A DNA stretch of 64,000 nucleotides from Amia ocellicauda (taxonomy: Eukaryota > Chordata > Actinopteri > Amiiformes > Amiidae), in the NCBI RefSeq assembly GCF_036373705.1, contig NC_089867.1:21782323-21846322 (forward strand), read 5' to 3'. This document shows, in pieces, positions 23,472 to 58,424 of this stretch. A model generated the notes under the pieces. The model searched no databases and was not told the DNA's origin. It saw only the letters and a list, made by a program, of their open reading frames with translations. Both the position numbers and the translations under genes were made by a program. Each line of letters opens with the position of its first letter. Within the stretch, counting starts at the first letter, position 1.

Positions 23472-33978
<10,507 letters not shown>

Positions 33979-36029: not shown

Positions 36030-36140
36030 CGGCAGCACAATGGCGCGATCAGACAACAGAGCTTCGCCCGCCGTTTACCACGGCACATGTCCATTGTGCT
36101 GCCCCTTCAATGCCCACAGTGGCAGAGAGTGTGGGAACCA
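36030..36140 (-). promoter_or_regulatory. Candidate Notch/SOX enhancer module D (single copy, reversed)
   Basis: Read on the minus strand: TTCCCACA (36137-36130, CSL/RBPJ type), a 32-bp gap, ACAATGG (36097-36091, SOX type), a 47-bp gap, then CCATTGTG (36043-36036, inverted SOX). The order and spacing match modules A, C and E. It differs from them in having GTAAAC instead of a TTAG core. Confidence 0.6.
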
Positions 36141-36913
36141 CGCGGGGTGGCTCTACTCACAGACTGGGTAGCAGTTGGCAGAATAAAGAGAATGGCATTA
36201 ATTGAGAGCGCTTTCCTGGCTGGCAGACTCAGATGAGGAGGTAACCAGCGGCCGTTAAGACAATGACTGGGGTCGGTCAGTCTAATACACTGCATGCCAA
36301 TGGCAGGATATATCAGTATATTGTCCACAGCGATGTCGTGCCACTCTTGGGCAGGGGCCGGTTATTGGGGGCCACAGCTGTGGGCAGTAAGGGCTGTGCA
36401 GAGATACGGTGGCACAGTAGCTTGGCTCGGGTCTCCTATCTGACTCGCTGCCAGAACAGAAACTGACACATCTGGAATAGGGGAGGAGACAGACACATCT
36501 GGACCAAGGACGGAAGGTGGTTTAGTCTTCACGGCTCAGTGGCACAACATTACAGTCAGTTGGGGTAGCAGTGCCAGAATGATAAAGATACATAAAGTTT
36601 AATTATAATCGATGAATCTAAGTTCCACACCATTAAATTTAACATCCTGGAGCTGAAGGAGAATTAGGCAGAGCTCAGAAGGTCAATTTAAGATTAAATG
36701 CTGGATTAAACTGGAATTTAGAATCTCCCAGCTATGTTTAATTACGCCCAGACGTTCAAAAAACAAATAAAATAGTATTACTATCTATATGTGTGTGTAT
36801 GTTTTTACATGTTGCAGAGGTGCAGTTGTTCCGCTAACATCTGGCAGGAGCACAGCTGCGCAGACCCCCCCCCAGCTCATTATCCTCTGCCTTGTGAGAG
36901 TGCGCTTGATGGA

Positions 36914-37020
36914 GTTTCCCACACACTCCTCCATTCACTGCGTCTAAACACAGGAACAAAAGGAGCGTGCCTTGTTACATATCACATTAGTGCTGCTGCC
37001 CGCCTGCCTATTGTGCCCGG
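36914..37020 (+). promoter_or_regulatory. Candidate Notch/SOX enhancer module E (single copy)
   Basis: TTCCCACA (36916-36923), 32-bp gap, ACAAAAG (36956-36962), 22-bp gap, CATTAG (36985-36990), 19-bp gap, ATTGTG (37010-37015). It aligns along its length with module C of the tandem units (shared CATTCA, a purine-rich SOX block, CTT-T-TTACA, a TTAG core and ATTGTG), so the two look like old duplicates. Confidence 0.65.
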
Positions 37021-38499
37021 GTGAAATGTGCTCAAAGACCATCTGGGGAGCAGCTCTGGGACAGAGAAAAAGAAAAGTAAAAAGTAAAGAATTGTTTTCT
37101 TACGCCTCCTTGTTGTAAAAGGCAGAAGTTGCTGCAATTCTCCTGTGAGGACAACGGTGAAGGACAAAGAAAAATGTCTCTTTGCTAGCATAAAAGATTA
37201 AACTATCGTAGGATGGCAATGTGGTGCGTTGCAACATTAGGACCTTTTATGAAAGTTTTTATTTTCTCTTTCTAAACTCATGACCCAGTGACCTCCAGGG
37301 TTTGCCCCCTGTGATTGCCCCCGGGGTTAATTCAATTTAGAAGCCAATTTATCACTATCACTGATACACACCGAATTTAACAAAGCCAAAGACTGGGTCT
37401 GCTGTAACAGTATTAATCTTAATCCTTTCAAATTGTTGCCTATTAACATACAGTAAAGACTATCCTAACAGTAGATTATTTTACTATTCACCATATAAGT
37501 TATTCACCACAATGTTACAGTGGTGGCACATCAGTTTTATTGGTGCAAAGTGGATTTCTGCAAGAGTAAAGGAAAACACATCAGAACTTATATTTTCATT
37601 GATTTATTTTCTTATTTTTCAGTTCAGGAAGATCATCAACATGATGATTGATCACATAATAAACAACACTGACAGCAATGCAGTGAAAAAAAGCAATAAC
37701 AGTAAATACAGGATATAATTCCTTGATAAAGGCTACATATCACACAGTTACTCTGCATTGGATTGAAATTTACAAAACCATTACCAGACCTTAAACAGAA
37801 TTTCAAGGCCATACTTTAAAAATACTCACCAGAAGGTAGATACACTTATCACATCGCATTAGAAACACCACAGTGAAAACAAACACTAGAGTTTCTTTAT
37901 ATGACAAGCTGCTCTTGTGTAACAAGATACCATTGGAGTTTGGCCTTCACAGAAGACCTAATTTTAAACATTTGTTCATACAAAACATTTCACAATTGAG
38001 AAATACATTCTCAGCATCATATATATTGCTTGCACGGCAAGATATACATCAGGTCTCCTCAGAACAGACACACATCAGGGACTGCTTGAAATGATTCCTA
38101 ACTGAACAAATTTCAACACAGATTTGAAAACATTTAAAAATTTATAGCAACACGTCCACACACTGGTGTGAAATATGATTAGAAATATCCTGCCTTCACA
38201 GAAGACACACATTGTTAGAAGCTGCCCTGATTACTTCAGAGGCACAAGTGGAAACAGAAATAATCTCTTCCACACATACACACGTCTTGTATAACAAGGA
38301 GAACAGCAGTCATACTGTTGAGCACAGGTGTGTTGAATCGTGCATGTTCTTTCTGTCAAAGACAGAGCTCTTTAAAACCTTCCACACAGGCAGAAGAGGA
38401 AGGAAGACACTTCCTACACGCTGAGAATTACTGTCCATGCCCGTCTTAGACAGGCCGGTCCAATTCTGGGGTCTGAGTCCAGTGCCCGTCCGCAGGGCT

Positions 38500-39108
38500 C
38501 TACCAGGGCCGCCAGAGGGCGCCTTTAGCCGGACTCTCCTGTTTGATGGTGCTGTGGCGGGCTGGGGAGCTCAGCTGGGGCAGGGCGCTCGGACAGCTGG
38601 CCTTATCAGAGGACTGCTGCCCGCTCCGGAAATGGCTCAGCAGTCTTCGCCGGGACTCGGTCTTCACTTGGTCCCGGGACAGGAAGCGCACGATTTCTTG
38701 GGCACACCTGGAGTAGCCCTCGCCTGCAGCCGCAGGCCCGGAGGAGGCGCTAGCGAGCTGCTGCTGGCACCGCTGTCTCAGGTAGCACACCGTCATTTCC
38801 AGGATGTCGGCTTTCTCCAGCTTGGAGTCGGGCTGCTGGCTCAGGAAGTCGCCGGCCAGGAGAGACTTGAGCTGCTCGATGCTGCTGTTGATGCGATCTC
38901 TGCGCATTCGCTCAACCATCGGCTTTCTCAGCTGGAGAGACAAGACAAGACGTGGGTTAGTCATCAGGCTCTGGGAGGCAACCTGGATGAAATCACTGAC
39001 AGATGAAATCAGGGCATTTCTCCACAGGTCAGGTTCTCAACTTACTTTGTGGCTCAGGGTGGCGTGCTCCTTTGAGTATCCCATTGCTGCAGCGAGTGTC
39101 GGTGCCAT
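38500..39108 (-). CDS. hes5: Hes5/Her4-like bHLH-Orange repressor, copy 1
   Basis: Exon 1 is 39108-39046 (MAPTLAAAMGYSKEHATLSHK), intron 114 bp (GTAAGT...CTCTCCAG), exon 2 is 38931-38500; 164 residues. Basic region from residue 22 with the Hes-specific proline (LRKPMVERMRRDRIN), helix-loop-helix to about residue 78 (SKLEKADILEMTVCYL), an Orange-type segment at about 92-107 (EGYSRCAQEIVRFL) and the C-terminal WRPW (161-164) that recruits Groucho/TLE. Such proteins are nuclear Notch targets that bind N-box/E-box DNA, repress proneural genes and keep neural progenitors undifferentiated. Residue 75 is Arg. The start is supported by the Kozak context (GCCATGG) and the TATA box 70 bp upstream. The pank4 neighbour matches human HES5 synteny. 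The helix-loop-helix is uninterrupted by an intron. Confidence 0.96.
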
Positions 39109-39172
39109 GGCTGGAGCTGGGCTGTAGTGCTCTCTGTGTAGAGTGAGTGTGACTGCTGCTGCTCTCGGCTCT

Positions 39173-39330
39173 GCTATTTATAGTCCCCAATCTGCATCCC
39201 AATGTGTGGGTCTCGGGCTCGTTGCAGTTTCTCACAGTCCGTAGCCAATGGGCGAGCTCGGGGAGACAATGGGGACGCTGGAATTGCCACATGCTCAATG
39301 AAGTGCTTATTGCCCGGGGACAATGGCCAT
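39173..39330 (-). promoter_or_regulatory. hes5 copy 1 promoter: TATA, CSL paired site, CCAAT, SOX sites
   Basis: CTATAAATA (39183-39175, minus strand) lies 70 bp upstream of the ATG. TGTGGGTC (39205-39212) and TTCTCACA (39229-39236) form an inverted pair with a 16-bp gap, the geometry of a Su(H)/CSL paired site; the left half is imperfect in its last two bases. CCAAT (39245-39249) and two ACAATGG SOX-type sites (39266-39272, 39320-39326) follow. Confidence 0.65.
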
Positions 39331-39865
39331 GTCTCTGGGGAACAGGTGGAGGGGTGGGGCGATGGCGAGTGCCTCACGGAGCACTGTGTGAATCTGGGAA
39401 AGTGGTGACCCCCGTGCAGAGAGCAGATCTGCCGCCTGATGTTGGGATCAGTGATTCGTGTTTAGAGAGCACACGTGTGTAAGTGCACACGTCCTGCACC
39501 ATGAAGGCTTTAAAGCACCGAAGCCCACACTCGGCTCTGCATGCTGTTTGCAGTGAACACTGATGCTTCCAGGATTGTTCGATGTCTGTGAGATATTAAG
39601 CCGATGAGATCTGTTTGACCTCAGCCCCAGCTGCAGGTGTTGAACTGTATGTGCGCGGCTCGCTGGGGTATGATTATAATTACCCTGAATAAGCCCTAAT
39701 CGCACCCATGTACTTTTATTATGATCATTATTTATTCATTGAGCAGACGTCTTTTTAATAATGCCTTCCATATCATCCGCATATTGATTTCAAGGGTTTC
39801 CTGGTGACAGTAAAGAAAATAGAACATTCAGCACTTCGTATTAAATGGGAGAGAGAGAACAACAT

Positions 39866-39913
39866 CAATAATAATAATAATAATAATATTAATAATAATT
39901 ATCATTATTATTA
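39866..39913. repeat. (AAT)n/(ATT)n microsatellite, unit 1
   Basis: AAT triplets followed by interrupted ATT triplets about 760 bp upstream of hes5 copy 1. The same site has different lengths in the other units. Confidence 0.95.
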
Positions 39914-40399
39914 TGATTTGTGTTCTTAGTGGATCAGTGCTGTTCATTCTTACATTATATATCTTTGAGAGCAAATACACAATTTAATGTTGCTTCACAT
40001 ATAAGCAACATGTCTATATTAAGCCACTCCTTTTTAAACTAACTAGCATTTTTATACAGTCAACTGGGCTCTGTGACTAAAGTACACCAAGTCTCCTGAG
40101 ATTACGAATGGACAGTTCAAAGCGATTGCTTGGTAATTCATGAACTGAAAAGATTGAATTAAAAGGTTGAGGTTAATCATTAAGATGAATTTATAAATTA
40201 GTCTTCAAATTGAAAATTATTAATTAAAATTCCCAGATTGCACCTCCGTATCCCAGATTGTGGCTGACAGGGTCTAATCAGTTATCACTGTCAGGGGGAT
40301 AGTCAGCAGATATGTGTCAATCCACAGAGCAGTGTGTCCAGATGTCCCAGATGTGTCTCAGTCCTGCGGCTGCTGGGCTCTGTGAGTAGAGCTGCCCGG

Positions 40400-40522
40400 T
40401 CTTTCCCACACTGCGTCCTGTGTGCTGGGCTCCACACACAACAAAAGCAGCCAGGCGCGCTGAATGGGGCATTAGTGACGCCAATTGGCTCTGTATTGTG
40501 GGACGGGCAGCGCATGACGTCA
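40400..40522 (+). promoter_or_regulatory. Candidate enhancer module A, unit 1 (CSL-SOX-TTAG-SOX plus CRE)
   Basis: TTCCCACA (40403-40410), 30-bp gap, ACAAAAG (40441-40447), 22-bp gap, CATTAG (40470-40475), 19-bp gap, ATTGTG (40495-40500), then a perfect palindromic CRE, TGACGTCA (40515-40522). About 1.3 kb upstream of hes5 copy 1. Confidence 0.65.
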
Positions 40523-41090
40523 CACGCCATCTGGAGGGAAGGCCGATCAATGGCTGACATCTTATCAATACATCTGTACCTGTGCGCATCAACAGGGCCT
40601 CACAGCACCACAGTCAGTCATGACATCAGGACCGCAGCAGCTGACTGGGGGAGGCGGGGCTAATGGACAGGGAAACCCAGATTATACCTGTCGGGCAGGT
40701 GATCAGGTGACCTCAGCACACTGCGCTGTGATTGGCAGAGGAGGAGGAGAGTCTGACAGAGTGACACACAGGTATTGTGTGTCTTATTGTGCGACTGTTG
40801 TCCTCAAACACACAGCAATAGTAAAACAGCCTGATGACACTGCAGGCACTTCTGCTCTGAATGGTGTATCGAACACGTCCCCTCAGCCGTCCTCCTGCTC
40901 AGTGCTCAGCTTCTCCACACCTTCCTGCTCCCCGTGCCTTTGCCATGACTGAGCCACAGAGAGGGGCTCCCAGGTGCCCAGTGTCAGAGAGCAGCCCCCC
41001 CACCGTGTCCAGCCCCAGATAAAGGCCTCCAGATGCTGGTGGGGTTGAGGAGTCGTAATGGCCCTGGAACTGAGACTCTGCTCTCCAGAG

Positions 41091-41152
41091 CTTTCCCACA
41101 CTCTGCCCATTGAGAGAGCGACAATAGAAGTGTGCCGATTGAATGCTAATTT
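41091..41152 (+). promoter_or_regulatory. Candidate enhancer module B, unit 1 (CSL-SOX-POU)
   Basis: TTCCCACA (41093-41100), 20-bp gap, ACAATAG (41121-41127), then ATGCTAAT (41143-41150), an octamer-like POU site. It shares TTTCCCACACTCTGCCCATT and ACAATAGAAGTGTG with module C but has a 10-bp shorter gap and no inverted SOX site. Confidence 0.6.
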
Positions 41153-41428
41153 GGTTTCAAACCATCAGCCCCTGAAAATCCTCTAGAGGATAAAACTTGT
41201 TAGTTAAAGTGCTTTCATCAAGGGCCAGATGAACACACACATGTAGAGAGCATGGCGTCCAGCGGAAGTGTGTTAGTAGACATCAGCGCTCATGGGAAAT
41301 CGTCAGTAAAGCATGTGATATCAGCGTCTGAGACCCAGAGTAAATCATAAGCAATTCAAGACAATATAATGGAAACTCTTATGTACCAGTCTTATTCACT
41401 GAGAGCCATTATTCTTCTTATTATTATT

Positions 41429-41437
41429 CATCTTCTT

Positions 41438-41499
<62 letters not shown>
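41429..41499. repeat. (TTC)n(TTA)n microsatellite, unit 1
   Basis: TTC triplets run straight into TTA triplets. The tract length varies in units 2 and 3, and the tract is absent from unit 4. Confidence 0.95.
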
Positions 41500-41574
41500 A
41501 TGACTAATCAAAACTACTCAGCACTTTTAAAGTAATCTTTTGCATCCACCAAAATAATAGAATTATTTCCCTCC

Positions 41575-41605
41575 TCCATTATATAGCGCCTTTCACTCCA
41601 CCAGT
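41575..41605 (-). repeat. Possible SINE/L2-type 3' end remnant
   Basis: The minus strand reads GAAAGGCGCTATATAATGG, wording shared by 3' tails of many fish SINEs and L2-like LINEs. Present in units 1-4 and next to the TTC/TTA tract. Too short for assignment. Confidence 0.35.
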
Positions 41606-41860
41606 GTTCTCAACAGCCTTTCCCAGTCACAGCCCAGCTGCTCAACGCTTTACTCTGAGAATCACACAATGCACCTGGGCCTGATATTTCATCAGCGATA
41701 TGAGACACACAGCAGAACCTCGTCAACATGCAACATGTGCCGTGTTTAATATGGCAACAAAACAGACCCCACCTCCCCCTCCCCCCATTCCTGGTGTGCA
41801 GCTCTGTGGGTCGACTCACTAGGGATTGTCCCCTCCGGCCCTGTGAGTGAGTTTTCCTCT

Positions 41861-41970
41861 GTTTCCCACACTCTGCCCATTCAGCACGTCCAATAGGGAG
41901 ACAATAGAAGTGTGTCTTATTACACATCGCGTTAGCGACGGTGTTTGATCTGCCATTGTGGGGTAGGGCA
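41861..41970 (+). promoter_or_regulatory. Candidate enhancer module C, unit 1 (CSL-SOX-TTAG-SOX)
   Basis: TTCCCACA (41863-41870), 30-bp gap, ACAATAG (41901-41907), 23-bp gap, GTTAGC (41931-41936), 18-bp gap, ATTGTG within CCATTGTG (41953-41960). Closest relative in the window is single-copy module E. Confidence 0.65.
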
Positions 41971-44189
41971 GCCACAGTGCGTGTCACTGTGCAATTTCAG
42001 GCAAACTTCTGAAACTTGTATCAGCTCAGCCTGATTTAGTGTCCAGCTGACTGTCCTGGATTACACCTCTTCAGCTTATAGTTTAGTAAACAAGGATGTA
42101 GAAACCAGCACAAGAGCAGCAGCATTGACTAATGCACTCAATTAACAAAATAATCTTCATTACCATGTTAAAACAGTACACTGAGACCAGGGTGGGCTGT
42201 AAAAACAAGGTACCAAATGAACAAGCATGCATACCTTTCATACACAGATTACTTCGATTAATAATCTAATACCAACACAGAGCTCCTATATACATCCACA
42301 CAGACATATATAGTGAGATACACAAGCTATAATTATTATTATTATCATTATTATTATTATTATTGTTCATCTGTTTTTTTATACAGTGTGAAGCTGCATC
42401 TTGAAGTTGACTGATTGTAATGATTTCTTATAATGATGATGATTTTGTATTTAACGTAGGAAGTCAATTAGACAATATCAGACAATTTAAATATTCATGT
42501 TTTGTCATCGTTTTCTCAGTGGATTCTCTATGGCGTAAGGAAGGAGTCCTTCTATGAGTCTTAAACTTCTCAACTACTGTCTGGTATTCTGTTCTAGTAC
42601 ATCACAGTTAAGTATATTTAAAAGGGGTAATGACGATGCAGAACATGTATTCAAGAAGATGATACTGGTCGCTCTTCTCATCGAGGACAATTAACTGTGT
42701 TAGTGCGTGATGTCATACTCGCAAGAAACCTAAACTGATTACTTTCTCTATTCAGTACCTTAAACAGCGCCAACAAAGCAGCATCCAAAAAGCAAATGAA
42801 GAAAGCACGATCAATATATTTATTACTTTCTAGTTTTACTAATTATGATGATATTAATAGGGTGAAATACGTATTTAGTGTTATGAAAATAAACGATTTA
42901 TCTAAATATACGTCACACTTTATTGATAGTCAGAGAGCCTCGATTAAATCACACATTATATATGTAATATGCAATGTAGTGTAATATGTAATGTGTATCA
43001 ATGTGGGTCTGATATAGAAATAAAGTAAATTAATCAATTTTGACCGTTAATTGCATTTTAAACATTGCCTTTCAATTTCCTGTACTGTAATAAATTCACA
43101 TGTGTATGTGATTCCTCATTATTATTACGATTGCATGTATTGGATTTAAAGAAGAGAAAACAAGGACATGTGAAGTTGATTTCATTTTTATTCTTCATGT
43201 TCTTCTTCTTGAAGTGAAATGCACAACAATTGAATATGATTCACAGAATCAGTACGGTTTCATGAGCACTGTATGTTCATGAACAGCTACAATAAGAGCC
43301 AAGGTGAGAGTCTGGGTCTACAAACACATGAGCCACACACTGAAAACAACATCACTAGCAAAACCTGAAGACATCTCCAAGACACAATATTCCATCACAC
43401 AGACACACCGTGGACAGTGTGAACACATTGAGAAACAGCCTTCATAGAAGACACACATATACTTGAATAATAAACACGCTAACCTTTCTCCGAGTCAGAA
43501 ATAATTATATTTCAATTGAATAAATACATATTTCTTATGTAACAAAGCAATGCTAATATAGGCCCATTACTGAAACATATTCATTATTAATCATTCATTA
43601 TAGTAGCCTAATGCTCAAACTTGAGCATCGCACACTGCTTTATTCAAAGCATAGGGAAGCACACACGTCTTGTGGAACAAGATACAATCATACCTTCTCG
43701 GAAGGCAAGTGTCTAAGATAGAAATTAATTTCTTTAAAACATGAAAAAACACATCAATGGACTAATGTGAAATGAAAACATCACATTTGTACTTTTCTGC
43801 AATCAGAAATAACCTTTGAGCTATGAAAAATTCATAGCAACACGTCCACACACTGGTGTGAAATATGATTAGAAATATCCTGCCTTCACAGAAGACACAC
43901 ATTGTTAGAAGCTGCCCTGATTACTTCAGAGGCACAAGTGGAAACAGAAATAATCTCTTCCACACATACACACGTCTTGTATAACAAGGAGAACAGCAGT
44001 CATACTGTTGAGCACAGGTGTGTTGAATCGTGCATGTTCTTTCTGTCAAAGACAGAGCTCTTTAAAACCTTCCACACAGGCAGAAGAGGAAGGAAGACAC
44101 TTCCTACACGCTGAGAATTACTGTCCATGCCCGTCTTAGACAGGCCGGTCCAATTCTGGGGTCTGAGTCCAGTGCCCGTCCGCAGGGCT

Positions 44190-44798
44190 CTACCAGGGCC
44201 GCCAGAGGGCGCCTTTAGCCGGACTCTCCTGTTTGATGGTGCTGTGGCGGGCTGGGGAGCTCAGCTGGGGCAGGGCGCTCGGACAGCTGGCCTTATCAGA
44301 GGACTGCTGCCCGCTCCGGAAATGGCTCAGCAGTCTTCGCCGGGACTCGGTCTTCACTTGGTCCCGGGACAGGAAGCGCACGATTTCTTGGGCACACCTG
44401 GAGTAGCCCTCGCCTGCAGCCGCAGGCCCGGAGGAGGCGCTAGCGAGCTGCTGCTGGCACCGCTGTCTCAGGTAGCACACCGTCATTTCCAGGATGTCGG
44501 CTTTCTCCAGCTTGGAGTCGGGCTGCTGGCTCAGGAAGTCGCCGGCCAGGAGAGACTTGAGCTGCTCGATGCTGCTGTTGATGCGATCTCTGCGCATTCG
44601 CTCAACCATCGGCTTTCTCAGCTGGAGAGGCAAGACAAGACGTGGGTTAGTCATCAGGCTCTGGGAGGCAACCTGGATGAAATCACTGACAGATGAAATC
44701 AGGGCATTTCTCCACAGGTCAGGTTCTCAACTTACTTTGTGGCTCAGGGTGGCGTGCTCCTTTGAGTATCCCATTGCTGCAGCGAGTGTCGGTGCCAT
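44190..44798 (-). CDS. hes5: Hes5/Her4-like repressor, copy 2
   Basis: Exon 1 44798-44736, exon 2 44621-44190. The predicted protein is identical to copy 1, including Arg75. One base differs in the intron (GAGAGGCAAG for GAGAGACAAG). The promoter keeps the paired CSL site (44895-44926) and the TATA box. Nothing disables it, so it should be functional if transcribed. TTTATT at 43197-43202 (AATAAA on the minus strand) is a candidate polyadenylation signal about 1 kb past the stop. Confidence 0.95.
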
Positions 44799-44862
44799 GG
44801 CTGGAGCTGGGCTGTAGTGCTCTCTGTGTAGAGTGAGTGTGACTGCTGCTGCTCTCGGCTCT

Positions 44863-45020
44863 GCTATTTATAGTCCCCAATCTGCATCCCAATGTGTGGG
44901 TCTCGGGCTCGTTGCAGTTTCTCACAGTCCGTAGCCAATGGGCGAGCTCGGGGGGACAATGGGGAAGCTGGAATTGCCACATGCTCAATGAAGTGCTTAT
45001 TGCCCGGGGACAATGGCCAT
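44863..45020 (-). promoter_or_regulatory. hes5 copy 2 promoter
   Basis: Same elements as copy 1; CSL paired site halves at 44895-44902 and 44919-44926. Confidence 0.6.
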
Positions 45021-46090
45021 GTCTCTGGGGAACAGGTGGAGGGGTGGGGCGATGGCGAGTGCCTCACGGAGCACTGTGTGAATCTGGGAAAGTGGTGACC
45101 CCCGTGCAGAGAGCAGATCTGCCGCCTGATGTTGGGATCAGTGATTCGTGTTTAGAGAGCACACGTGTGTAAGTGCACACGTCCTGCACCATGAAGGCTT
45201 TAAAGCACCGAAGCCCACACTCGGCTCTGCATGCTGTTTGCAGTGAACACTGATGCTTCCAGGATTGTTCGATGTCTGTGAGATATTAATCCGATGAGAT
45301 CTGTTTGACCTCAGCCCCAGCTGCAGGTGTTGAACTGTATGTGCGCGGCTCGCTGGGGTATGATTATAATTACCCTGAATAAGCCCTAATCGCACCCATG
45401 TACTTTTATTATGATCATTATTTATTCATTGAGCAGACGTCTTTTTAATAATGCCTTCCATATCATCCGCATATTGATTTCAAGGGTTTCCTGGTGACAG
45501 TAAAGAAAATAGAACATTCAGCACTTCGTATTAAATGGGAGAGAGAGAACAACATCAATAATAATAATAATAATAATTATTATTATTATTATAATTATAA
45601 TAATTATAAAATCATCTATGTGGATCAGTGCTGTTCATTCTTACATTATATATCTTTGAGAGCAAATACACAATTTAATGTTGCTTCACATATAAGCAAC
45701 ATGTCTATATTAAGCCACTCCTTTTTAAACTAACTAGCATTTTTATACAGTCAACTGGGCTCTGTGACTAAAGTACACCAAGTCTCCTGAGATTACGAAT
45801 GGACAGTTCAAAGCGATTGCTTGGTAATTCATGAACTGAAAAGATTGAATTAAAAGGTTGAGGTTAATCATTAAGATGAATTTATAAATTAGTCTTCAAA
45901 TTGAAAATTATTAATTAAAATTCCCAGATTGCACCTCCGTATCCCAGATTGTGGCTGACAGGGTCTAATCAGTTATCACTGTCAGGGGGATAGTCAGCAG
46001 ATATGTGTCAATCCACAGAGCAGTGTGTCCAGATGTCCCAGATGTGTCTCAGTCCTGCGGCTGCTGGGCTCTGTGAGTAGAGCTGCCCGG

Positions 46091-46213
46091 TCTTTCCCAC
46101 ACTGCGTCCTGTGTGCTGGGCTCCACACACAACAAAAGCAGCCAGGCGCGCTGAATGGGGCATTAGTGACGCCAATTGGCTCTGTATTGTGGGACGGGCA
46201 GCGCATGACGTCA
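46091..46213 (+). promoter_or_regulatory. Candidate enhancer module A, unit 2
   Basis: CSL site 46094-46101 and CRE TGACGTCA 46206-46213, all internal motifs conserved. Confidence 0.62.
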
Positions 46214-46781
46214 CACGCCATCTGGAGGGAAGGCCGATCAATGGCTGACATCTTATCAATACATCTGTACCTGTGCGCATCAACAGGGCCTCACAGCACC
46301 ACAGTCAGTCATGACATCAGGACCGCAGCAGCTGACTGGGGGAGGCGGGGCTAATGGACAGGGAAACCCAGATTATACCTGTCGGGCAGGTGATCAGGTG
46401 ACCTCAGCACACTGCGCTGTGATTGGCAGAGGAGGAGGAGAGCCTGACAGAGAGACACACAGGTATTGTGTGTCTTATTGTGCGACTGTTGTCCTCAAAC
46501 ACACAGCAATAGTAAAACAGCCTGATGACACTGCAGGCACTTCTGCTCTGAATGGTGTATCGAACACGTCCCCTCAGCCGTCCTCCTGCTCAGTGCTCAG
46601 CTTCTCCACACCTTCCTGCTCCCCGTGCCTTTGCCATGACTGAGCCACAGAGAGGGGCTCCCAGGTGCCCAGTGTCAGAGAGCAGCCCCCCCACCGTGTC
46701 CAGCCCCAGATAAAGGCCTCCAGATGCTGGTGGGGTTGAGGAGTCTTAATGGCCCTGGAACTGAGACTCTGCTCTCCAGAG

Positions 46782-46843
46782 CTTTCCCACACTCTGCCCA
46801 TTGAGAGAGCGACAATAGAAGTGTGCCGATTAAATGCTAATTT
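46782..46843 (+). promoter_or_regulatory. Candidate enhancer module B, unit 2
   Basis: CSL site 46784-46791; SOX and octamer-like sites conserved, with ATTAAATGCTAAT in place of ATTGAATGCTAAT. Confidence 0.57.
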
Positions 46844-47144
46844 GGTTTCAAACCATCAGCCCCTGAAAATCCTCTAGAGGATAAAACTTGTTAGTTAAAG
46901 TGCTTTCATCAAGGGCCAGATGAACACACACATGTAGAGAGCATGGCGTCCAGTGGAAGTGTGTTAGAAGACATCAGCGCTCATGGGAAATCGTCAGTAA
47001 AGCATGTGATATCAGCGTCTGAGACCCAGAGTAAATCATAAGCAATTCAAGACAATATAATGGAAAACTCTTATGTACCAGTCTTATTCACTGAGAGCCA
47101 TTATTCCTCTTATTATTATTCATCTTCTTCTTCTTCTTCTTCTT

Positions 47145-47203
<59 letters not shown>

Positions 47204-47564
47204 ATGACTAATCAAAACTATTCAGCACTTTTAAAGTAATCTTTTGCATCCACCAAAATAATAGAATTATTTCCCTCCTCCATTATATAGCGCCTTTCAC
47301 TCCACCAGTGTTCTCAACAGCCTTTCCCAGCCACAGCCCAGCTGCTCAAAGCTTTACTCTGAGAATCACACAATGCACCTGGGCCTGATATTTCATCAGC
47401 GATATGAGACACACAGCAGAACCTCGTCAACATGCAACATGTGCCGTGTTTAATATGGCAACAAAACAGACCCCACCTCCCCCTCCCCCCATTCCTGGTG
47501 TGCAGCTCTGTGGGTCGACTCACTAGGGATTGTCCCCTCCGGCCCTGTGAGTGAGTTTTCCTCT

Positions 47565-47674
47565 GTTTCCCACACTCTGCCCATTCAGCACGTCCAATAG
47601 GGAGACAATAGAAGTGTGTCTTATTACACATCGCGTTAGCGACGGTGTTTGATCTGCCATTGTGGGGTAGGGCA
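47565..47674 (+). promoter_or_regulatory. Candidate enhancer module C, unit 2
   Basis: CSL site 47567-47574; the rest of the module is unchanged from unit 1. Confidence 0.62.
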
Positions 47675-49892
47675 GCCACAGTGCGTGTCACTGTGCAATT
47701 TCAGGCAAACTTCTGAAACTTGTATCAGCTCAGCCTGATTTAGTGTCCAGCTGACTGTCCTGGATTACACCTCTTCAGCTTATAGTTTAGTAAACAAGGA
47801 TGTAGAAACCAGCACAAGAGCAGCAGCATTGAATAATGCACTCAATTAACAAAATAATCTTCATTACCATGTTAAAACAGTACACTGAGACCAGGGTGGG
47901 CTGTAAAAACAAGGTACCAAATGAACAAGCATGCATACCTTTCATACACAGATTACTTTGATTAATAATCTAATACCAACACAGAGCTCCTATATACATC
48001 CACACAGACATATATAGTGAGATACACAAGCTATAATTATTATTATTATCATTATTATTATTATTATTGTTCATCTGTTTTTTTATACAGTGTGAAGCTG
48101 CATCTTGAAGTTGACTGATTGTAATGATTTCTTATAATGATGATGATTTTGTATTTAACGTAGGAAGTCAATTAGACAATATCAGACAATTTAAATATTC
48201 ATGTTTTGTCATCGTTTTCTCAGTGGATTCTCTATGGCGTAAGGAAGGAGTCCTTCTATGAGTCTTAAACTTCTCAACTACTGTCTGGTATTCTGTTCTA
48301 GTACATCACAGTTAAGTATATTTAAAAGGGGTAATGACGATGCAGAACATGTATTCAAGAAGATGATACTGGTCGCTCTTCTCATCGAGGACAATTAACT
48401 GTGTTAGTGCGTGATGTCATACTCGCAAGAAACCTAAACTGATTACTTTCTCTATTCAGTACCTTAGACAGCGCCAACAAAGCAGCAACCAAAAAGCAAA
48501 TGAAGAAAGCACGATCAATATATTTATTACTTTCTAGTTTTACTAATTATGATGATATTAATAGGGTGAAATACGTATTTAGTGTTATGAAAATAAACGA
48601 TTTATCTAAATATACGTCACACTTTATTGATAGTCAGAGAGCCTCGATTAAATCACACATTATATATGTAATATGCAATGTAGTGTAATATGTAATGTGT
48701 ATCAATGTGGGTCTGATATAGAAATAAAGTAAATTAATCAATTTTTACCGTTAATTGCATTTTAAACATTGCCTTTCAATTTCCTGTACTGTAATAAATT
48801 CACATGTGTATGTGATTCCTCATTATTATTACGATTGCATGTATTGGATTTAAAGAAGAGAAAACAAGGACATGTGGAGTTGATTTCATTTTTATTCTTC
48901 ATGTTCTTCTTCTTGAAGTGAAATGCACAACAATTGAATATGATTCACAGAATCAGTACGGTTTCATGAGCACTGTATGTTCATGAACAGCTACAATAAG
49001 AGCCAAGGTGAGAGTCTGGGTCTACAAACACATGAGCCACACACTGAAAACAACATCACTAGCAAAACCTGAAGACATCTCCAAGACACAATATTCCATC
49101 ACACAGACACACCGTGGACAGTGTGAACACATTGAGAAACAGCCTTCATAGAAGACACACATATACTTGAATAATAAACACGCTAACCTTTCTCCAAGTC
49201 AGAAATAATTATATTTCAATTGAATAAATACATATTCTTATGTAACAAAGCAATGCTAATATAGGCCCATTACTGAAACATATTAATAATGAATCATTCA
49301 TTATAGTAGCCTAATGCTCAAACTTGAGCATCGCACACTGCTTTATTCAAAGCATAGGGAAGCACACACGTCTTGTGGAACAAGATACAATCATACCTTC
49401 TCAGAAGGCAAGTGTCTAAGATAGAAATTAATTTCTTTAAAACATGAAAAAACACATCAATGGACTAATGTGAAATGAAAACATCACATTTGTACTTTTC
49501 TGCAATCAGAAATAACCTTTGAGCTATGAAAAATTCATAGCAACACGTCCACACACTGGTGTGAAATATGATTAGAAATATCCTGCCTTCACAGAAGACA
49601 CACATTGTTAGAAGCTGCCCTGATTACTTCAGAGGCACAAGTGGAAACAGAAATAATCTCTTCCACACATACACACGTCTTGTATAACAAGGAGAACAGC
49701 AGTCATACTGTTGAGCACAGGTGTGTTGAATCGTGCATGTTCTTTCTGTCAAAGACAGAGCTCTTTAAAACCTTCCACACAGGCAGAAGAGGAAGGAAGA
49801 CACTTCCTACACGCTGAGAATTACTGTCCATGCCCGTCTTAGACAGGCCGGTCCAATTCTGGGGTCTGAGTCCAGTGCCCGTCCGCAGGGCT

Positions 49893-50501
49893 CTACCAGG
49901 GCCGCCAGAGGGCGCCTTTAGCCGGACTCTCCTGTTTGATGGTGCTGTGGCGGGCTGGGGAGCTCAGCTGGGGCAGGGCGCTCGGACAGCTGGCCTTATC
50001 AGAGGACTGCTGCCCGCTCCGGAAATGGCTCAGCAGTCTTCGCCGGGACTCGGTCTTCACTTGGTCCCGGGACAGGAAGCGCACGATTTCTTGGGCACAC
50101 CTGGAGTAGCCCTCGCCTGCAGCCGCAGGCCCGGAGGAGGCGCTAGCGAGCTGCTGCTGGCACTGCTGTCTCAGGTAGCACACCGTCATTTCCAGGATGT
50201 CGGCTTTCTCCAGCTTGGAGTCGGGCTGCTGGCTCAGGAAGTCGCCGGCCAGGAGAGACTTGAGCTGCTCGATGCTGCTGTTGATGCGATCTCTGCGCAT
50301 TCGCTCAACCATCGGCTTTCTCAGCTGGAGAGACAAGACAAGACGTGGGTTAGTCATCAGGCTCTGGGAGGCAACCTGGATGAAATCACTGACAGATGAA
50401 ATCAGGGCATTTCTCCACAGGTCAGGTTCTCAACTTACTTTGTGGCTCAGGGTGGCGTGCTCCTTTGAGTATCCCATTGCTGCAGCGAGTGTCGGTGCCA
50501 T
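49893..50501 (-). CDS. hes5: Hes5/Her4-like repressor, copy 3
   Basis: Exon 1 50501-50439, exon 2 50324-49893. Same 164-residue protein as copy 1 except Gln at residue 75 (CAG for CGG), just after the second helix. The change is shared with copies 4 and 5, defining two subgroups (1-2 and 3-5). Splice sites, WRPW and promoter are intact. Confidence 0.95.
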
Positions 50502-50565
50502 GGCTGGAGCTGGGCTGTAGTGCTCTCTGTGTAGAGTGAGTGTGACTGCTGCTGCTCTCGGCTCT

Positions 50566-50723
50566 GCTATTTATAGTCCCCAATCTGCATCCCAATGTGT
50601 GGGTCTCGGGCTCGTTGCAGTTTCTCACAGTCCGTAGCCAATGGGCGAGCTCGGGGGGACAATGGGGAAGCTGGAATTGCCACATGCTCAATGAAGTGCT
50701 TATTGCCCGGGGACAATGGCCAT
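50566..50723 (-). promoter_or_regulatory. hes5 copy 3 promoter
   Basis: CSL paired site halves at 50598-50605 and 50622-50629; TATA, CCAAT and SOX sites retained. Confidence 0.6.
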
Positions 50724-51258
50724 GTCTCTGGGGAACAGGTGGAGGGGTGGGGCGATGGCGAGTGCCTCACGGAGCACTGTGTGAATCTGGGAAAGTGGTG
50801 ACCCCCGTGCAGAGAGCAGATCTGCCGCCTGATGTTGGGATCAGTGATTCGTGTTTAGAGAGCACACGTGTGTAAGTGCACACGTCCTGCACCATGAAGG
50901 CTTTAAAGCACCGAAGCCCACACTCGGCTCTGCATGCTGTTTGCAGTGAACACTGATGCTTCCAGGATTGTTCGATGTCTGTGAGATAGTAAGCCGATGA
51001 GATCTGTTTGACCTCAGCCCCAGCTGCAGGTGTTGAACTGTATGTGCGCGGCTCGCTGGGGTATGATTATAATTACCCTGAATAAGCCCTAATCGCACCC
51101 ATGTACTTTTATTATGATCATTATTTATTCATTGAGCAGACGTCTTTTTAATAATGCCTTCCATATCATCCGCATATTGATTTCAAGGGTTTCCTGGTGA
51201 CAGTAAAGAAAATAGAACATTCAGCACTTCGTATTAAATGGGAGAGAGAGAACAACAT

Positions 51259-51371
<113 letters not shown>

Positions 51372-51843
51372 ATAAAAACATCTAAGTGGATCAGTGCTGT
51401 TAATTCTTACATTATATATCTTTGTGAGCAAATACACAATTTAATGTTGCTTCACATGTATATTAAGCCACTCCTTTTTAAACTAACTAGCATTTTTATA
51501 CAGTCAACTGGGCTCTGTGACTAAAGTACACCAAGTCTCCTGAGATTACGAATGGACAGTTCAAAGCGATTGCTTGGTAATTCATGAACTGAAAAGATTG
51601 AATTAAAAGGTTGAGGTTAATCATTAAGATGAATTTATAAATTAGTCTTCAAATTGAAAATTATTAATAAAAATTCCCAGATTGCACCTCAGTATCCCAG
51701 ATTGTGGCTGACAGGGTCTAATCAGTTATCACTGTCAGGGGGATAGTCAGCAGATATGTGTCAATCCACAGAGCAGTGTGTCCAGATGTCCCAGATGTGT
51801 CTCAGTCCTGCGGCTGCTGAGCTCTGTGAGTAGAGCTGCCCGG

Positions 51844-51966
51844 TCTTTCCCACACTGCGTCCTGTGTGCTGGGCTCCACACACAACAAAAGCAGCCAGGC
51901 GCGCTGAATGGGGCATTAGTGACGCCAATTGGCTCTGTATTGTGGGACGGGCAGCGCATGACGTCA
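51844..51966 (+). promoter_or_regulatory. Candidate enhancer module A, unit 3
   Basis: CSL site 51847-51854; CRE 51959-51966. Confidence 0.62.
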
Positions 51967-52534
51967 CACGCCATCTGGAGGGAAGGCCGATCAATGGCTG
52001 ACATCTTATCAATACATCTGTACCTGTGCGCATCAACAGGGCCTCACAGCACCACAGTCAGTCATGACATCAGGACCGCAGCAGCTGACTGGGGGAGGCG
52101 GGGCTAATGGACAGGGAAACCCAGATTATACCTGTCGGCCAGGTGATCAGGTGACCTCAGCACACTGCGCTGTGATTGGCAGAGGATGAGGAGAGCCTGA
52201 CAGAGTGACACACAGGTATTGTGTGTCTTATTGTGCGACTGTTGTCCTCAAACACACAGCAATAGTAAAACAGCCTGATGACACTGCAGGCACTTCTGCT
52301 CTGAATGGTGTATCGAACACGTCCCCTCAGCCGTCCTCCTGCTCAGTGCTCAGCTTCTCCACACCTTCCTGCTCCCTGTGCCTTTGCCATGACTGAGCCA
52401 CAGAGAGGGGCTCCCAGGTGCCCAGTGTCAGAGAGCAGCCCCCCCACCGTGTCCAGCCCCAGATAAAGGCCTCCAGATGCTGGTGGGGTTGAGGAGTCGT
52501 AATGGCCCTGGAACTGAGACTCTGCTCTCCAGAG

Positions 52535-52596
52535 CTTTCCCACACTCTGCCCATTGAGAGAGCGACAATAGAAGTGTGCCGATTAAATGCTAATTT
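52535..52596 (+). promoter_or_regulatory. Candidate enhancer module B, unit 3
   Basis: CSL site 52537-52544; SOX and octamer-like sites conserved. Confidence 0.57.
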
Positions 52597-52903
52597 GGAT
52601 TCAAACCATCAGCCCCTGAAAATCCTCTAGAGGATAAAACTTGTTAGTTAAAGTGCTTTCATCAAGGGCCAGATGAACACACACATGTAGAGAGCATGGC
52701 GTCCAGTGGAAGTGTGTTAGAAGACATCAGCGCTCATGGGAAATCGTCAGTAAAGCATGTGATATCAGCGTCTGAGACCCAGAGTAAATCATAAGCAATT
52801 TAAGACAATATAATGGAAAACTCTTATGTACCAGTCTTATTCAATGAGAGCCATTATTCTTCTTATTATTATTCATCTTCTTCTTCTTCTTCTTCTTCTT
52901 CTT

Positions 52904-52934
<31 letters not shown>

Positions 52935-53314
52935 TTATTATTATTTTTATTACATGACTAATCAAAACTACTCAGCACTTTTAAAGTAATCTTTTGCATC
53001 CACCAAAATAATAGAGTTATTTCCCTCCTCCATTATATAGCGCCTTTCACTCCACCAGTGTTCTCAACAGCCTTTCCCAGCCACAGCCCAGCTGCTCAAA
53101 GCTTTACTCTGAGAATCACACAATGCACCTGGGCCTGATATTTCATCAGCGATATGAGACACACAGCAGAACCTCGTCAACATGCAACATGTGCCGTGTT
53201 TAATATGGCAACAAAACAGACCCCACCTCCCCCTCCCCCCATTCCTGGTGTGCAGCTCTGTGGGTCGACTCACTAGGGATTGTCCCCTCCGGCCCTGTGA
53301 GTGAGTTTTCCTCT

Positions 53315-53424
53315 GTTTCCCACACTCTGCCCATTCAGCACGTCCAATAGGGAGACAATAGAAGTGTGTCTTATTACACATCGCGTTAGCGACGGTGTTT
53401 GATCTGCCATTGTGGGGTAGGGCA
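53315..53424 (+). promoter_or_regulatory. Candidate enhancer module C, unit 3
   Basis: CSL site 53317-53324; the module is unchanged. Confidence 0.62.
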
Positions 53425-55632
53425 GCCACAGTGCGTGTCACTGTGCAATTTCAGGCAAACTTCTGAAACTTGTATCAGCTCAGCCTGATTTAGTGTCCAG
53501 CTGACTGTCCAGGATTACACCTCTTCAGCTTATAGTTTAGTAAACAAGGATGTAGAAACCAGCACAAGAGCAGCAGCATTGACTAATGCACTCAATTAAC
53601 AAAATAATCTTCATTACCATGTTAAAACAGTACACTGAGACCAGGGTGGGCTGTAAAAACAAGGTACAAAATGAACAAGCATGCATAAATTTCATACACA
53701 GATTACTTCGATTAATAATCTAATACCAACACAGAGCTCCTATATACATCCACACAGACATATATAGTGAGATACACAAGCTATAATTATTATTATTATC
53801 ATTATTATTATTATTATTGTTCATCTGTTTTTTTATACAGTGTGAAGCTGCATCTTGAAGTTGACTGATTGTAATGATTTCTTATAATGATGATGATTTT
53901 GTATTTAACGTAGGAAGTCAATTAGACAATATCAGACAATTTAAATATTCATGTTTTGTCATAGTTTTCTCAGTGGATTCTCTATGGCGTAAGGAAGGAG
54001 TCCTTCTATGAGTCTTAAACTTCTCAACTACTGTCTGGTATTCTGTTCTAGTACATCACAGTTAAGTATATTTAAAAGGGGTAATGACGATGCAGAACAT
54101 GTATTCAAGAAGATGATACTGGTCGCTCTTCTCATCGAGGACAATTAACTGTGTTAGTGCGTGATGTCATACTCGCAAGAAACCTAAACTGATTACTTTC
54201 TCTATTCAGTACCTTAGACAGCGCCAACAAAGCAGCAACCAAAAAGCAAATGAAGAAAGCAAGATCAATATATTCATTACTTTCTAGTTTTACTAATTAT
54301 GATGATATTAATAGGGTGAAATACGTATTTAGTGTTATGAAAATAAACGATTTATCTAAATATACGTCACACTTTATTGATAGTCAGAGAGCCTCGATTA
54401 AATCACACATTATATATGTAATATGCAATGTAGTGTAATATGTAATGTGGATCAATGTGGGTCTGATATAGAAATAAAGTAAATTAATCAATTTTGCATT
54501 TTAAACATTGCCTTTCAATTTCCTGTACTGTAATAAATTCACGTGTGTATGTGATTCCTCATTATTATTACGATTGCATGTATTGGATTTAAAGAAGAGA
54601 AAACAAGGACATGTGACGTTGATTTCATTTTTATTATTCATGTTCTTCTTCTTGAAGTGAAATGCACAACAATTGAATATGATTCACAGAATCAGTACGG
54701 TTTCATGAGCACTGTATGTTCATGAACAGCTACAATAAGAGCCAAGGTGAGAGTCTGGGTCTACAAACACATGAGCCACACACTGAAAACAACATCACTA
54801 GCAAAACCTGAAGACATCTCCAAGACACAATATTCCATCACACAGACACACCGTGGACAGTGTGAACACATTGAGAAACAGCCTTCATAGAAGACACACA
54901 TATACTTGAATAATAAACACGCTAACCTTTCTCCAAGTCAGAAATAATTATATTTCAATTGAATAAATACATATTTCTTATGTAACAAAGCAATGCTAAT
55001 ATAGGCCCATTACTGAAACATATTAATAATGAATCATTCATTATAGTAGCCTAATGCTCAAACTTGAGCATCGCACACTGCTTTATTCAAAGCATAGGGA
55101 AGCACACACGTCTTGTGGAACAAGATACAATCATACCTTCTCAGAAGGCAAGTGTCTTAGATAGAAATTAATTTCTTTAAAACATGAAAAAACACATCAA
55201 TGGACTAATGTGAAATGAAAACATCACATTTGTACTTTTCTGCAATCAGAAATAACCTTTGAGCTATGAAAAATTCATAGCAACACGTCCACACACTGGT
55301 GTGAAATATGATTAGAAATATCCTGCCTTCACAGAAGACACACATTGTTAGAAGCTGCCCTGATTACTTCAGAGGCACAAGTGGAAACAGAAATAATCTC
55401 TTCCACACATACACACGTCTTGTATAACAAGGAGAACAGCAGTCATACTGTTGAGCACAGGTGTGTTGAATCGTGCATGTTCTTTCTGTCAAAGACAGAG
55501 CTCTTTAAAACCTTCCACACAGGCAGAAGAGGAAGGAAGACACTTCCTACACGCTGAGAATTACTGTCCATGCCCGTCTTAGACAGGCCGGTCCAATTCT
55601 GGGGTCTGAGTCCAGTGCCCGTCCGCAGGGCT

Positions 55633-56241
55633 CTACCAGGGCCGCCAGAGGGCGCCTTTAGCCGGACTCTCCTGTTTGATGGTGCTGTGGCGGGCTGGGG
55701 AGCTCAGCTGGGGCAGGGCGCTCGGACAGCTGGCCTTATCAGAGGACTGCTGCCCGCTCCGGAAATGGCTCAGCAGTCTTCGCCGGGACTCGGTCTTCAC
55801 TTGATCCCGGGACAGGAAGCGCACGATTTCTTGGGCACACCTGGAGTAGCCCTCGCCTGCAGCCGCAGGCCCGGAGGAGGCGCTAGCGAGCTGCTGCTGG
55901 CACTGCTGTCTCAGGTAGCACACCGTCATTTCCAGGATGTCGGCTTTCTCCAGCTTGGAGTCGGGCTGCTGGCTCAGGAAGTCGCCGGCCAGGAGAGACT
56001 TGAGCTGCTCGATGCTGCTGTTGATGCGATCTCTGCGCATTCGCTCAACCATCGGCTTTCTCAGCTGGAGAGACAAGACAAGACGTGGGTTAGTCATCAG
56101 GCTCTGGGAGGCAACCTGGATGAAATCACTGACAGATGAAATCAGGGCATTTCTCCACAGGTCAGGTTCTCAACTTACTTTGTGGCTCAGGGTGGCGTGC
56201 TCCTTTGAGTATCCCATTGCTGCAGCGAGTGTCGGTGCCAT
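55633..56241 (-). CDS. hes5: Hes5/Her4-like repressor, copy 4
   Basis: Exon 1 56241-56179, exon 2 56064-55633. Protein identical to copy 3 (Gln75). It has one synonymous change in the RDQ aspartate codon (GAT for GAC), also present in copy 5. Splice sites and WRPW intact. Confidence 0.95.
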
Positions 56242-56305
56242 GGCTGGAGCTGGGCTGTAGTGCTCTCTGTGTAGAGTGAGTGTGACTGCTGCTGCTCTCG
56301 GCTCT

Positions 56306-56463
56306 GCTATTTATAGTCCCCAATCTGCATCCCAATGTGTGGGTCTCGGGCTCGTTGCAGTTTCTCACAGTCCGTAGCCAATGGGCGAGCTCGGGGGGAC
56401 AATGGGGAAGCTGGAATTGCCACATGCTCAATGAAGTGCTTATTGCCCGGGGACAATGGCCAT
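56306..56463 (-). promoter_or_regulatory. hes5 copy 4 promoter
   Basis: CSL paired site halves at 56338-56345 and 56362-56369; TATA and SOX sites retained. Confidence 0.6.
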
Positions 56464-56999
56464 GTCTCTGGGGAACAGGTGGAGGGGTGGGGCGATGGCG
56501 AGTGCCTCACGGAGCACTGTGTGAATCTGGGAAAGTGGTGACCCCCGTGCAGAGAGCAGATCTGCCGCCTGATGTTGGGATCAGTGATTCGTGTTTAGAG
56601 AGCACACGTGTGTAAGTGCACACGTCCTGCACCATGAAGGCTTTAAAGCACCGAAGCCCACACTCGGCTCTGCATGCTGTTTGCAGTGAACACTGATGCT
56701 TCCAGGATTGTTCGATGTCTGTGAGATAGTAAGCCGATGAGATCTGTTTGACCTCAGCCCCAGCTGCAGGTGTTGAACTGTATGTGCGCGGCTCGCTGGG
56801 GTATGATTATAATTACCCTGAATAAGCCCTAATCGCACCCATGTACTTTTATTATGATCATTATTTATTCATTGAGCAGACGTCTTTTTAATAATGCCTT
56901 CCATATCATCCGCATATTGATTTCAAGGGTTTCCTGGTGACAGTAAAGAAAATAGAACATTCAGCACTTCGTATTAAATGGGAGAGAGAGAACAACATC

Positions 57000-57038
<39 letters not shown>

Positions 57039-57538
57039 TTTTATTATTATTATAATTATAATAATTATAAAATCATCTAAGTGGATCAGTGCTGTTCATT
57101 CTTACATTATATATCTTTGAGAGCAAATACACAATTTAATGTTGCTTCACATGTATATTAAGCCACTCCTTTTTAAACTAACTAGCATTTTTATACAGTC
57201 AACTGGGCTCTGTGACTAAAGTACACCAAGTCTCCTGAGATTACGAATGGACAGTTCAAAGCGATTGCTTGGTAATTTATGAACTGAAAAGATTGAATTA
57301 AAAGGTTGAGGTTAATCATTAAGATGAATTTATAAATTAGTCTTCAAATTGAAAATTATTAATTAAAATTCCCAGATTGCACCTCAGTATCCCAGATTGT
57401 GGCTGACAGGGTCTAATCAGTTATCACTGTCAGGGGGATAGTCAGCAGATATGTGTCAATCCACAGAGCAGTGTGTCCAGATGTCCCAGATGTGTCTCAG
57501 TCCTGCGGCTGCTGGGCTCTGTGAGTAGAGCTGCCCGG

Positions 57539-57661
57539 TCTTTCCCACACTGCGTCCTGTGTGCTGGGCTCCACACACAACAAAAGCAGCCAGGCGCGCT
57601 GAATGGGGCATTAGTGACGCCAATTGGCTCTGTATTGTGGGACGGGCAGCGCATGACGTCA
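57539..57661 (+). promoter_or_regulatory. Candidate enhancer module A, unit 4
   Basis: CSL site 57542-57549; CRE 57654-57661. Confidence 0.62.
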
Positions 57662-58229: not shown

Positions 58230-58291
58230 CTTTCCCACACTCTGCCCATTGAGAGAGCGACAATAGAAGTGTGCCGATTAAATGCTAATTT
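58230..58291 (+). promoter_or_regulatory. Candidate enhancer module B, unit 4
   Basis: CSL site 58232-58239. SOX and octamer-like sites are kept although divergence begins immediately to the right. Confidence 0.57.
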
Positions 58292-58424
58292 GCTTTCAAA
58301 CCATCAGCCCCTGACAGGCCTCTAGAGGATAAAACTTGTTTGTTAAATATGCTTTAATCAAGGGCCAGATAAACACACACATGTAGAGAGCATGTAGAGA
58401 GTAAATCATAAGCAATTCAAGACA

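Follow-up and report, generated by a model that had tools for sequence, protein, structure and literature searches.

Putative Notch-responsive modules combining cryptic paired CSL sites with SOX-type sites in the PANK4-linked hes5 cluster of Amia ocellicauda

The closest described system is the proximal promoter of Hes5. In mouse and human, and similarly in chick, it combines TATA, CCAAT, and a canonical CSL site with a degenerate head-to-head partner at a gap of 16 (PMC7685452, PMC3201213). Conservation of TATA, CCAAT, and CSL across Hes5-like promoters is stated in PMC3201213. In PMC7685452, the Hes5 promoter is described as carrying a sequence-paired site (SPS), in which a canonical RBPJ site faces a "cryptic" one across 16 nucleotides, and Notch proteins are found to prefer the gap of 16 with little tolerance for variation. 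The isolated Hes5 SPS is described there as not dimer-dependent, while the whole promoter is dimer-dependent for Notch1, and a contribution of other promoter elements is predicted. A comparison of promoters and enhancers with cryptic SPSs for common additional motifs is also proposed in that paper, in the main text of which the words "Sox" and "CCAAT" do not appear. Here, we describe related elements in a 64,000-nucleotide stretch of the Amia ocellicauda genome (C24:21782323-21846322, hereafter the window), which includes the beginning of a tandem hes5 array with a unit of about 5.7 kb. Fifteen modules in and beyond the window are a real set of elements, whose occurrence is strongly non-random and specific to the cluster. 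They are a variant of the known Hes5-type SPS element, to which distal versions and a SOX-type site are added. Based on their sequences, they are probably a family of Notch-responsive neural cis-regulatory elements in the PANK4-linked hes5 cluster, multiplied together with the hes5 genes.

Two other systems resemble this locus. The SPS+A code of Drosophila E(spl) genes, reportedly described by Cave et al. 2005, is said to consist of paired Su(H) sites plus a proneural basic helix-loop-helix (bHLH) site. The Amia modules differ in having one degenerate half-site, an additional SOX site, and a predicted E-box, which lies 98–124 bp away in 8 of the 15 modules. The tandem hes5/her4/esr clusters of frogs, zebrafish, and gar share with Amia the position of a hes5 cluster beside pank4 and its lineage-specific expansion (PMC8320183). 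The pank4-linked cluster on LG25 of spotted gar contains four hes5-like genes in that description, whereas nine near-identical and two diverged copies are seen here. The word "promoter" is absent from the main text of PMC8320183. Compared with the Hes5 proximal promoter as published, rather than with aligned mammalian or chick sequence, the elements of the Amia cluster additionally occur distally and carry an E-box and, at a preferred distance, a SOX-type site. A full-text search of the open literature found no description of the SPS-SOX layout in distal hes5 modules; subscription papers, such as those on Xenopus Esr and zebrafish her4 promoters, were mostly outside this search.

A stretch of 143,678 bases was scanned for TT(C/T)C(C/T)CAC(A/G) accompanied by a SOX-type site, and 44 places were found. 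Positions marked "reg" follow the window numbering extended along contig C24. Fifteen non-redundant modules were defined: E, D, P, A, B, C, q82, P102, P106, q107, q108, q109, q110, P112, and q114. This set excludes the copies of A, B, C, and P in the array, those of A, B, and P within the inverted part, and the older copies C1, C2, and q89. It includes D and q107, which were entered manually, their 9-mer or distance having been outside the first scan. Nine of the 15 sit right of the window, outside the view of the first-pass annotation, which described modules A–E. E-boxes, promoter modules, the head-to-head CSL partner, and the tandem array are likewise missing from that description. Upstream of the array gene and of the two diverged genes are P, P102, and P112; P106 is next to a pseudogene, and A, B, and C are repeated from one array unit to the next. 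The modules were selected on CSL and SOX, and the SPS, E-box, and CCAAT were outside the selection criteria. Between the pseudogene and a diverged hes5 gene (reg 106126-111691), the two promoters and four distal modules have alternating orientations and a nearly symmetric spacing of about 2.3 and 4.5–4.6 kb from each promoter, as if by an inverted duplication. Two related promoter-like modules at reg 82000 and reg 89419 have no adjoining hes5 match.

A putative cryptic SPS is seen in most modules. GTGRG is located head-to-head at a gap of 13–17 bp from the strong CSL site (TTCCCAC; TTCTCAC in P) in 10 of 15 modules, compared with a mean of 0.20 and a maximum of 3 in 5000 single-base shuffles of the flanks. 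The gaps are 13 (C), 14 (A), 15 (E, q107, and q114), 16 (D, P, q109, and P112), and 17 (q108). Full GTGRG at gap 15–17 is therefore present in eight modules (E, D, P, q107, q108, q109, P112, and q114). Counted by gap triplets, GTGRG peaks at 14–16 and 15–17 (8/15 each), with 5 on either side and 0–2 elsewhere. The partner at gap 13–17 is absent from all seven other regional TTCCCACA sites without a SOX site, which were used as negatives. It is also absent from all 14 genome control sites, six of which are CSL-SOX matches outside the cluster. In B, q82, P102, and P106, four of the five core nucleotides are seen at gap 16, and in q110, three of the five at gap 17. Module q82 has a perfect head-to-head partner, GTGGGAA, at gap 8 instead of 16.

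The modules around the first hes5 gene illustrate the layout. The distal module E (36890..37050, plus strand) consists of GTGAGAG, 15 bp, TTCCCACA at 36916, CATTCA, SOX-type ACAAAAG, CATTAG, ATTGTG, and CCATCTG at +123. The distal, reversed module D (36030..36163, minus strand) has GTGAGTA, 16 bp, TTCCCACA at 36130-36137, ACAATGG, and ATTGTG. Module P (39170..39350, plus strand) is the proximal promoter of hes5 copy 1, which is encoded on the minus strand. It has a TATA-like box at −53, GTGGGTC, 16 bp, TTCTCACA at 39229, CCAAT at +16, ACAATGG at +37, and CAGGTGG at +114. The other three lie on the plus strand. Module A (40377..40535) contains GTGAGTA, 14 bp, TTCCCACA at 40403, ACAAAAG, CATTAG, ATTGTG, and CCATCTG at +124. 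Module B (41067..41160) contains CTGAGAC, matching four of five core nucleotides, 16 bp, TTCCCACA at 41093, ACAATAG after 20 bp, AAGTGTG, and ATGCTAAT, with neither TTAG nor ATTGTG at the usual place. Module C (41837..41985) contains GTGAGTG, 13 bp, TTCCCACA at 41863, CATTCA, ACAATAG, AAGTGTG, GTTAG, and ATTGTG.

The first-pass annotation had listed the 8-mer TTCCCACA of A–E and its distances to the SOX-type, TTAG, and ATTGTG sites, and these measurements were reproduced. The 8-mer occurs at 40403, 41863, 36916, and 41093 on the plus strand (A, C, E, and B) and at 36130-36137 on the minus strand (D). The gap from its end to the SOX-type 7-mer is 30 (A and C), 32 (E and D), or 20 bp (B). From the SOX start, TTAG begins exactly 31 bp downstream in A, C, and E, and ATTGTG 54 (A, C, and E) or 56 bp (D) downstream. 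These offsets equal the earlier 22–23 and 45/45/45/47, differing only in where the SOX site ends. The combination of TTCCCACA, 28–34 bp, and a SOX 7-mer is seen four times in positions 36030–41970, versus none in 1000 dinucleotide shuffles, and all four pairs also carry ATTGTG at SOX+54..56. The 8-mer itself occurs 17 times in the window against a shuffle mean of 2.8. This excess was rejected as evidence, as 10 of the 17 are non-independent copies of A, B, or C in later tandem units.

Further sites accompany the modules. A TATA-like box near −53 is present in all four promoter modules and in none of the 11 others. CCAAT lies at +16 in three of the four (P, P102, and P112), so that TATA, CCAAT, and CSL, the Hes5-type combination, are found together upstream of hes5 genes in these three. 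P106, at the pseudogene, has the TATA-like box and CSL, and its CAAT lacks the first C. CATTCA is seen instead at +13..+17 in the distal modules E, C, q107, q108, q110, and q114. CCATCTG is seen at +98..+124 in E, A, q108, q110, and q114, and CAGGTGG at +111..+115 in P, P112, and q109. One or the other E-box at +85..+130 is thus found in 8 of 15 modules, against a mean of 0.09 and a maximum of 2 in 2000 single-base shuffles. Among the 14 genome controls, one has either E-box and one has CCAAT or CATTCA at +10..+20. AAGTGTG directly follows the SOX core in six distal modules (B, C, q107, q108, q110, and q114), and we know of no factor for it. As to the E-boxes, CADATG is given as the preferred site of NEUROG proteins and CAGSTG as that of E proteins, with ASCL1 and ATOH1 favoring CAGCTG, in PMC6126921.

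The CSL-SOX association proposed earlier holds as non-random, and in the ACAATAG form it is specific to the hes5 cluster. The pattern TTTCCCACACN{15,42}ACAATAG has 28 matches genome-wide (988 Mb), 22 in the cluster, representing nine distinct modules, and 6 elsewhere; the reversed-pattern control has 6 in total. An origin of the modules from a mobile element is unsupported, as the ACAATAG form outside the cluster is at the control level. A sequence-only model of the 15 modules gives 46 matches up to E=1 in 144,000 bases, with none left of window position 36080 and none right of q114. Its matches to the 15 themselves are expected by construction; C1, C2, q89, and the array copies were outside the model.

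From this arrangement we infer how the modules would work. Each can be read as one good RBPJ/CSL site, in most cases with a degenerate head-to-head CSL 13–17 bp away, then often CCAAT (promoters) or CATTCA (distal), then a SOX-type site 37–40 bp (in some, 26–28 or 43–49 bp) from the CSL start, and an E-box 98–124 bp out in roughly half of the modules. NICD-RBPJ-MAML would occupy the strong site and possibly join a second such complex bound at the cryptic site. At the SOX-type site close by, a SOXB1 protein may limit the response to neural progenitors, and a proneural or E-protein factor at the E-box may provide a third input. Together, these inputs would drive expression in Notch-active neural progenitors. 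Copying of genes with their elements would raise both the hes5 dose and the number of Notch-responsive elements. It can be speculated further, and only tentatively, that every hes5 promoter and many distal sites retain a single composite element, in which a cryptic SPS is combined with a co-spaced SOX site and with CCAAT or an E-box as a neighbor. Its neighbors would enable the weak Hes5 half-site, hence the loss of dimer dependence by the isolated mammalian Hes5 SPS in reporters in which the full promoter kept it.

In any case, 15 natural variants of a cryptic-SPS element are present in one genome, with SOX, CCAAT/CATTCA, and E-box sites as candidate partners and spacing of 26–49 bp. With these variants, it can be tested directly which neighbor allows a weak Notch dimer site to work and whether spacing matters. 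The locus further suggests that the numbers of genes and enhancers increased together in a Notch-target cluster.

Several facts weigh against this reading. Five modules (B, q82, P102, P106, and q110) have no full GTGRG at gap 13–17, and the gaps of 14 in A and 13 in C are off the 16-bp optimum. By the Notch preference for gap 16 stated in PMC7685452, A and C are therefore poor. The presence of SOX sites is not independent evidence, since the modules were chosen for CSL and SOX. The ACAAARG form of the CSL-SOX pair was rejected as specific evidence: 28 of its 40 genome-wide matches are outside the cluster, with 12 inside, and the control has 34. This form is informative solely together with its context. 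The tandem array may contain assembly errors. Descent of the distal modules is weak after masking of the named sites, the footprint on module C could partly be explained by short-segment copying, and constraint is not convincingly apparent among the near-identical array copies. In these copies, 14 of 704 module columns are variable versus 164 of 4017 others, and the excess lies largely in microsatellite stretches.

The footprint on module C comes from its older copies, C1 (reg 83063) and C2 (reg 90554). The three-way identity of C, C1, and C2 is 72–80% over −50..+100, 42% at +100..+150, and 2–28% per 50-bp bin farther out, and an unbroken run spans the cryptic and strong CSL sites. Selection on C is probable, because about 150 bp are kept amid unalignable flanks. 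The copying that could mimic it is exemplified by a copy of A at reg 91389-91570, which is 182 bp long, 100% identical, and placed in different flanks. Within reg 91389-91678, the E-box stretch CCATCTGGAGGGAA is retained past the break of this copy, which is consistent with short-segment copying or conversion.

The first-pass annotation suggested a structured enhancer code. Under such an explanation, modules that were assembled separately would have converged on a common spaced CSL-SOX-TTAG-SOX code, the geometry being required for function. A, C, and E indeed have identical offsets (TTAG at SOX+31 and ATTGTG at SOX+54), and outside the window q110 has TTAG at exactly SOX+31 and q108 has ATTGTG at SOX+55. 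Across the 15 modules, TTAG at SOX+31 is seen in four and ATTGTG at SOX+54..56 in five, exclusively distal ones; the promoter P102 has TTAG at SOX+29. The CSL-SOX start distances are 26, 27, 28, 37 (five modules), 38 (three), 40 (two), 43, and 49, grouping at 26–28 and 37–40. With a range of 26–49 bp and a mode of 37–38, the "rigid" grammar that had been described does not hold. The order of CSL and SOX is constant and their spacing differs among modules, unlike in a rigid enhanceosome. Helical phasing, the other part of that description, survives only as a suggestive pattern. At 10.5 bp, R is 0.70 with P=4e-4 against a uniform null of 20–52; on the eight distinct values, P is 0.03, and R is slightly higher at 11–11.5 bp. 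As a law, phasing was rejected on these grounds.

A pairwise comparison of the 90-base stretch that follows SOX covered 16 modules including q89 (120 pairs). Before masking, 16 pairs exceed z=4 with a median z of 0.4. P, P112, P102, P106, q82, and q109 are linked in one group and A, C, D, E, q108, q110, and q114 in the other, with cross links E-P (4.3) and P102-q114 (5.2). The compared stretch includes TTAG, ATTGTG, AAGTGTG, and the E-boxes. When the named sites are masked, with the masked letters harshly scored as mismatches, 6 of 120 pairs exceed z 4, all among P, P102, P106, P112, q82, and q109 (P-P112, 16.5). C-E has a z of 3.8, and A-C and D-C fall outside the 20 best pairs. The promoter modules are thus homologous beyond the named sites, and C and E are probably homologous, although borderline after masking. 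A and D fit either an old common descent followed by decay or a separate assembly. A single ancestral element for all distal modules looked clear before masking; afterwards, descent holds for the promoters and, at the borderline, only for C-E. The loss of A-C and D-C similarity is what convergence predicts, and old decayed descent predicts the same. Against convergence, C-E similarity survives masking and the promoter modules are plainly homologous. Considering also the spread of distances, one of them at 43, and the phase statistics, a convergent code is unlikely.

An origin of the distal modules as promoters of hes5 copies that have since been lost, with conversion into enhancers, is also rather unlikely. 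The SPS, the CCAAT/CATTCA position, and the SOX distance are common to promoters and distal modules, and A, B, and C are oriented like the promoter of their gene. A pseudogene adjoins the promoter-like module P106, and q82 and q109 are promoter-like after SOX, yet have no adjoining hes5 match. However, the TATA-like box near −53 is missing from all 11 non-promoter modules, while CATTCA, AAGTGTG, and CCATCTG are common to distal modules and absent from promoters. A tblastn search found no hes5 remnant beside A–E, and both cross links between promoter and distal modules drop below z 3 once masked.

Alternatively, the modules might be true Notch elements in which the "SOX" site is recognized by a different HMG-box protein, such as TCF/LEF, or by an unrelated factor, for example one using ACAATAGAAGTGTG as a single long site. 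The AAGTGTG right after the core in six modules would fit this, as it is not known to be required at SOX consensus sites. On the other hand, the core varies as ACAATAG, ACAAAAG, and ACAAAGG among C, C1, and C2, and all three are compatible with the SOX consensus. Such a reader is quite doubtful. That the arrangement is a functionless by-product of recent tandem duplication is very improbable: the array units are 97–99% identical across nearly their whole length and the array is without clear constraint, but D, E, and the older modules at reg 102125-114143 would be left unexplained, and C1 and C2 keep similar cores within unalignable flanks.

Hes5 copy 1 (38500..39108, minus strand) contains an open reading frame at 38500-38964 with Pfam HLH and Hairy_orange matches, a bHLH and Orange exon ending in WRPW. 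Its first coding exon at about 39046-39108, the end of which is predicted, reads MAPTLAAAMGYSKEHATLSHK. A search of the genome with the hes5 protein gives 12 matches, on C24 only: nine copies at 99–100% identity, one at 48%, one at 45%, and one 27-residue fragment. Seven near-identical copies are oriented leftward and two rightward, and two diverged genes and one pseudogene lie beyond them. The recent amplification covers window positions 38136-64000 and extends to C24:21869012. A truncated hes5 3' fragment is located by the inversion point (reg 78959-79036).

The later units in the window repeat the same order, with each hes5 gene on the minus strand. Unit 2 (44190..48000) contains hes5 at 44190-44654, P at 44918, A at 46094, B at 46784, and C at 47567. 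In unit 3 (49893..53750), these are at 49893-50357, 50621, 51847, 52537, and 53317, respectively, and in unit 4 (55633..59600), at 55633-56097, 56361, 57542, 58232, and 59174. Unit 5 (61484..64000) continues past the window end, with hes5 at 61484-61948, P at 62212, and A at 63411.

Two pieces matching hes5 at reg 105703-105824, one of them interrupted by a stop, make up the pseudogene. At C24:21888025-21888448 (reg 105703-106126), they adjoin a promoter-like module that contains CSL and SOX sites and a TATA-like box. A run of exactly 7,500 N occupies reg 94001-101500, upstream of a diverged hes5 gene.

On the other side of the array, five PANK-type exon matches (Fumble/PF03630) are located at window positions 28678..31959 (C24:21811000-21814281, minus strand). 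This is one of four PANK loci found in the genome, and it is taken as PANK4, a gene whose position next to hes5 is conserved. Reverse-transcriptase-like open reading frame pieces are seen at window positions 16364-18643; 17198-17971 matches RVT_1, and 16364-17056 has no Pfam match. A transposon-like repeat is present in two 95% identical copies at window positions 30729-31632 and 34349-35254. The first copy lies between PANK exons, and the second contains a DDE_3 match.

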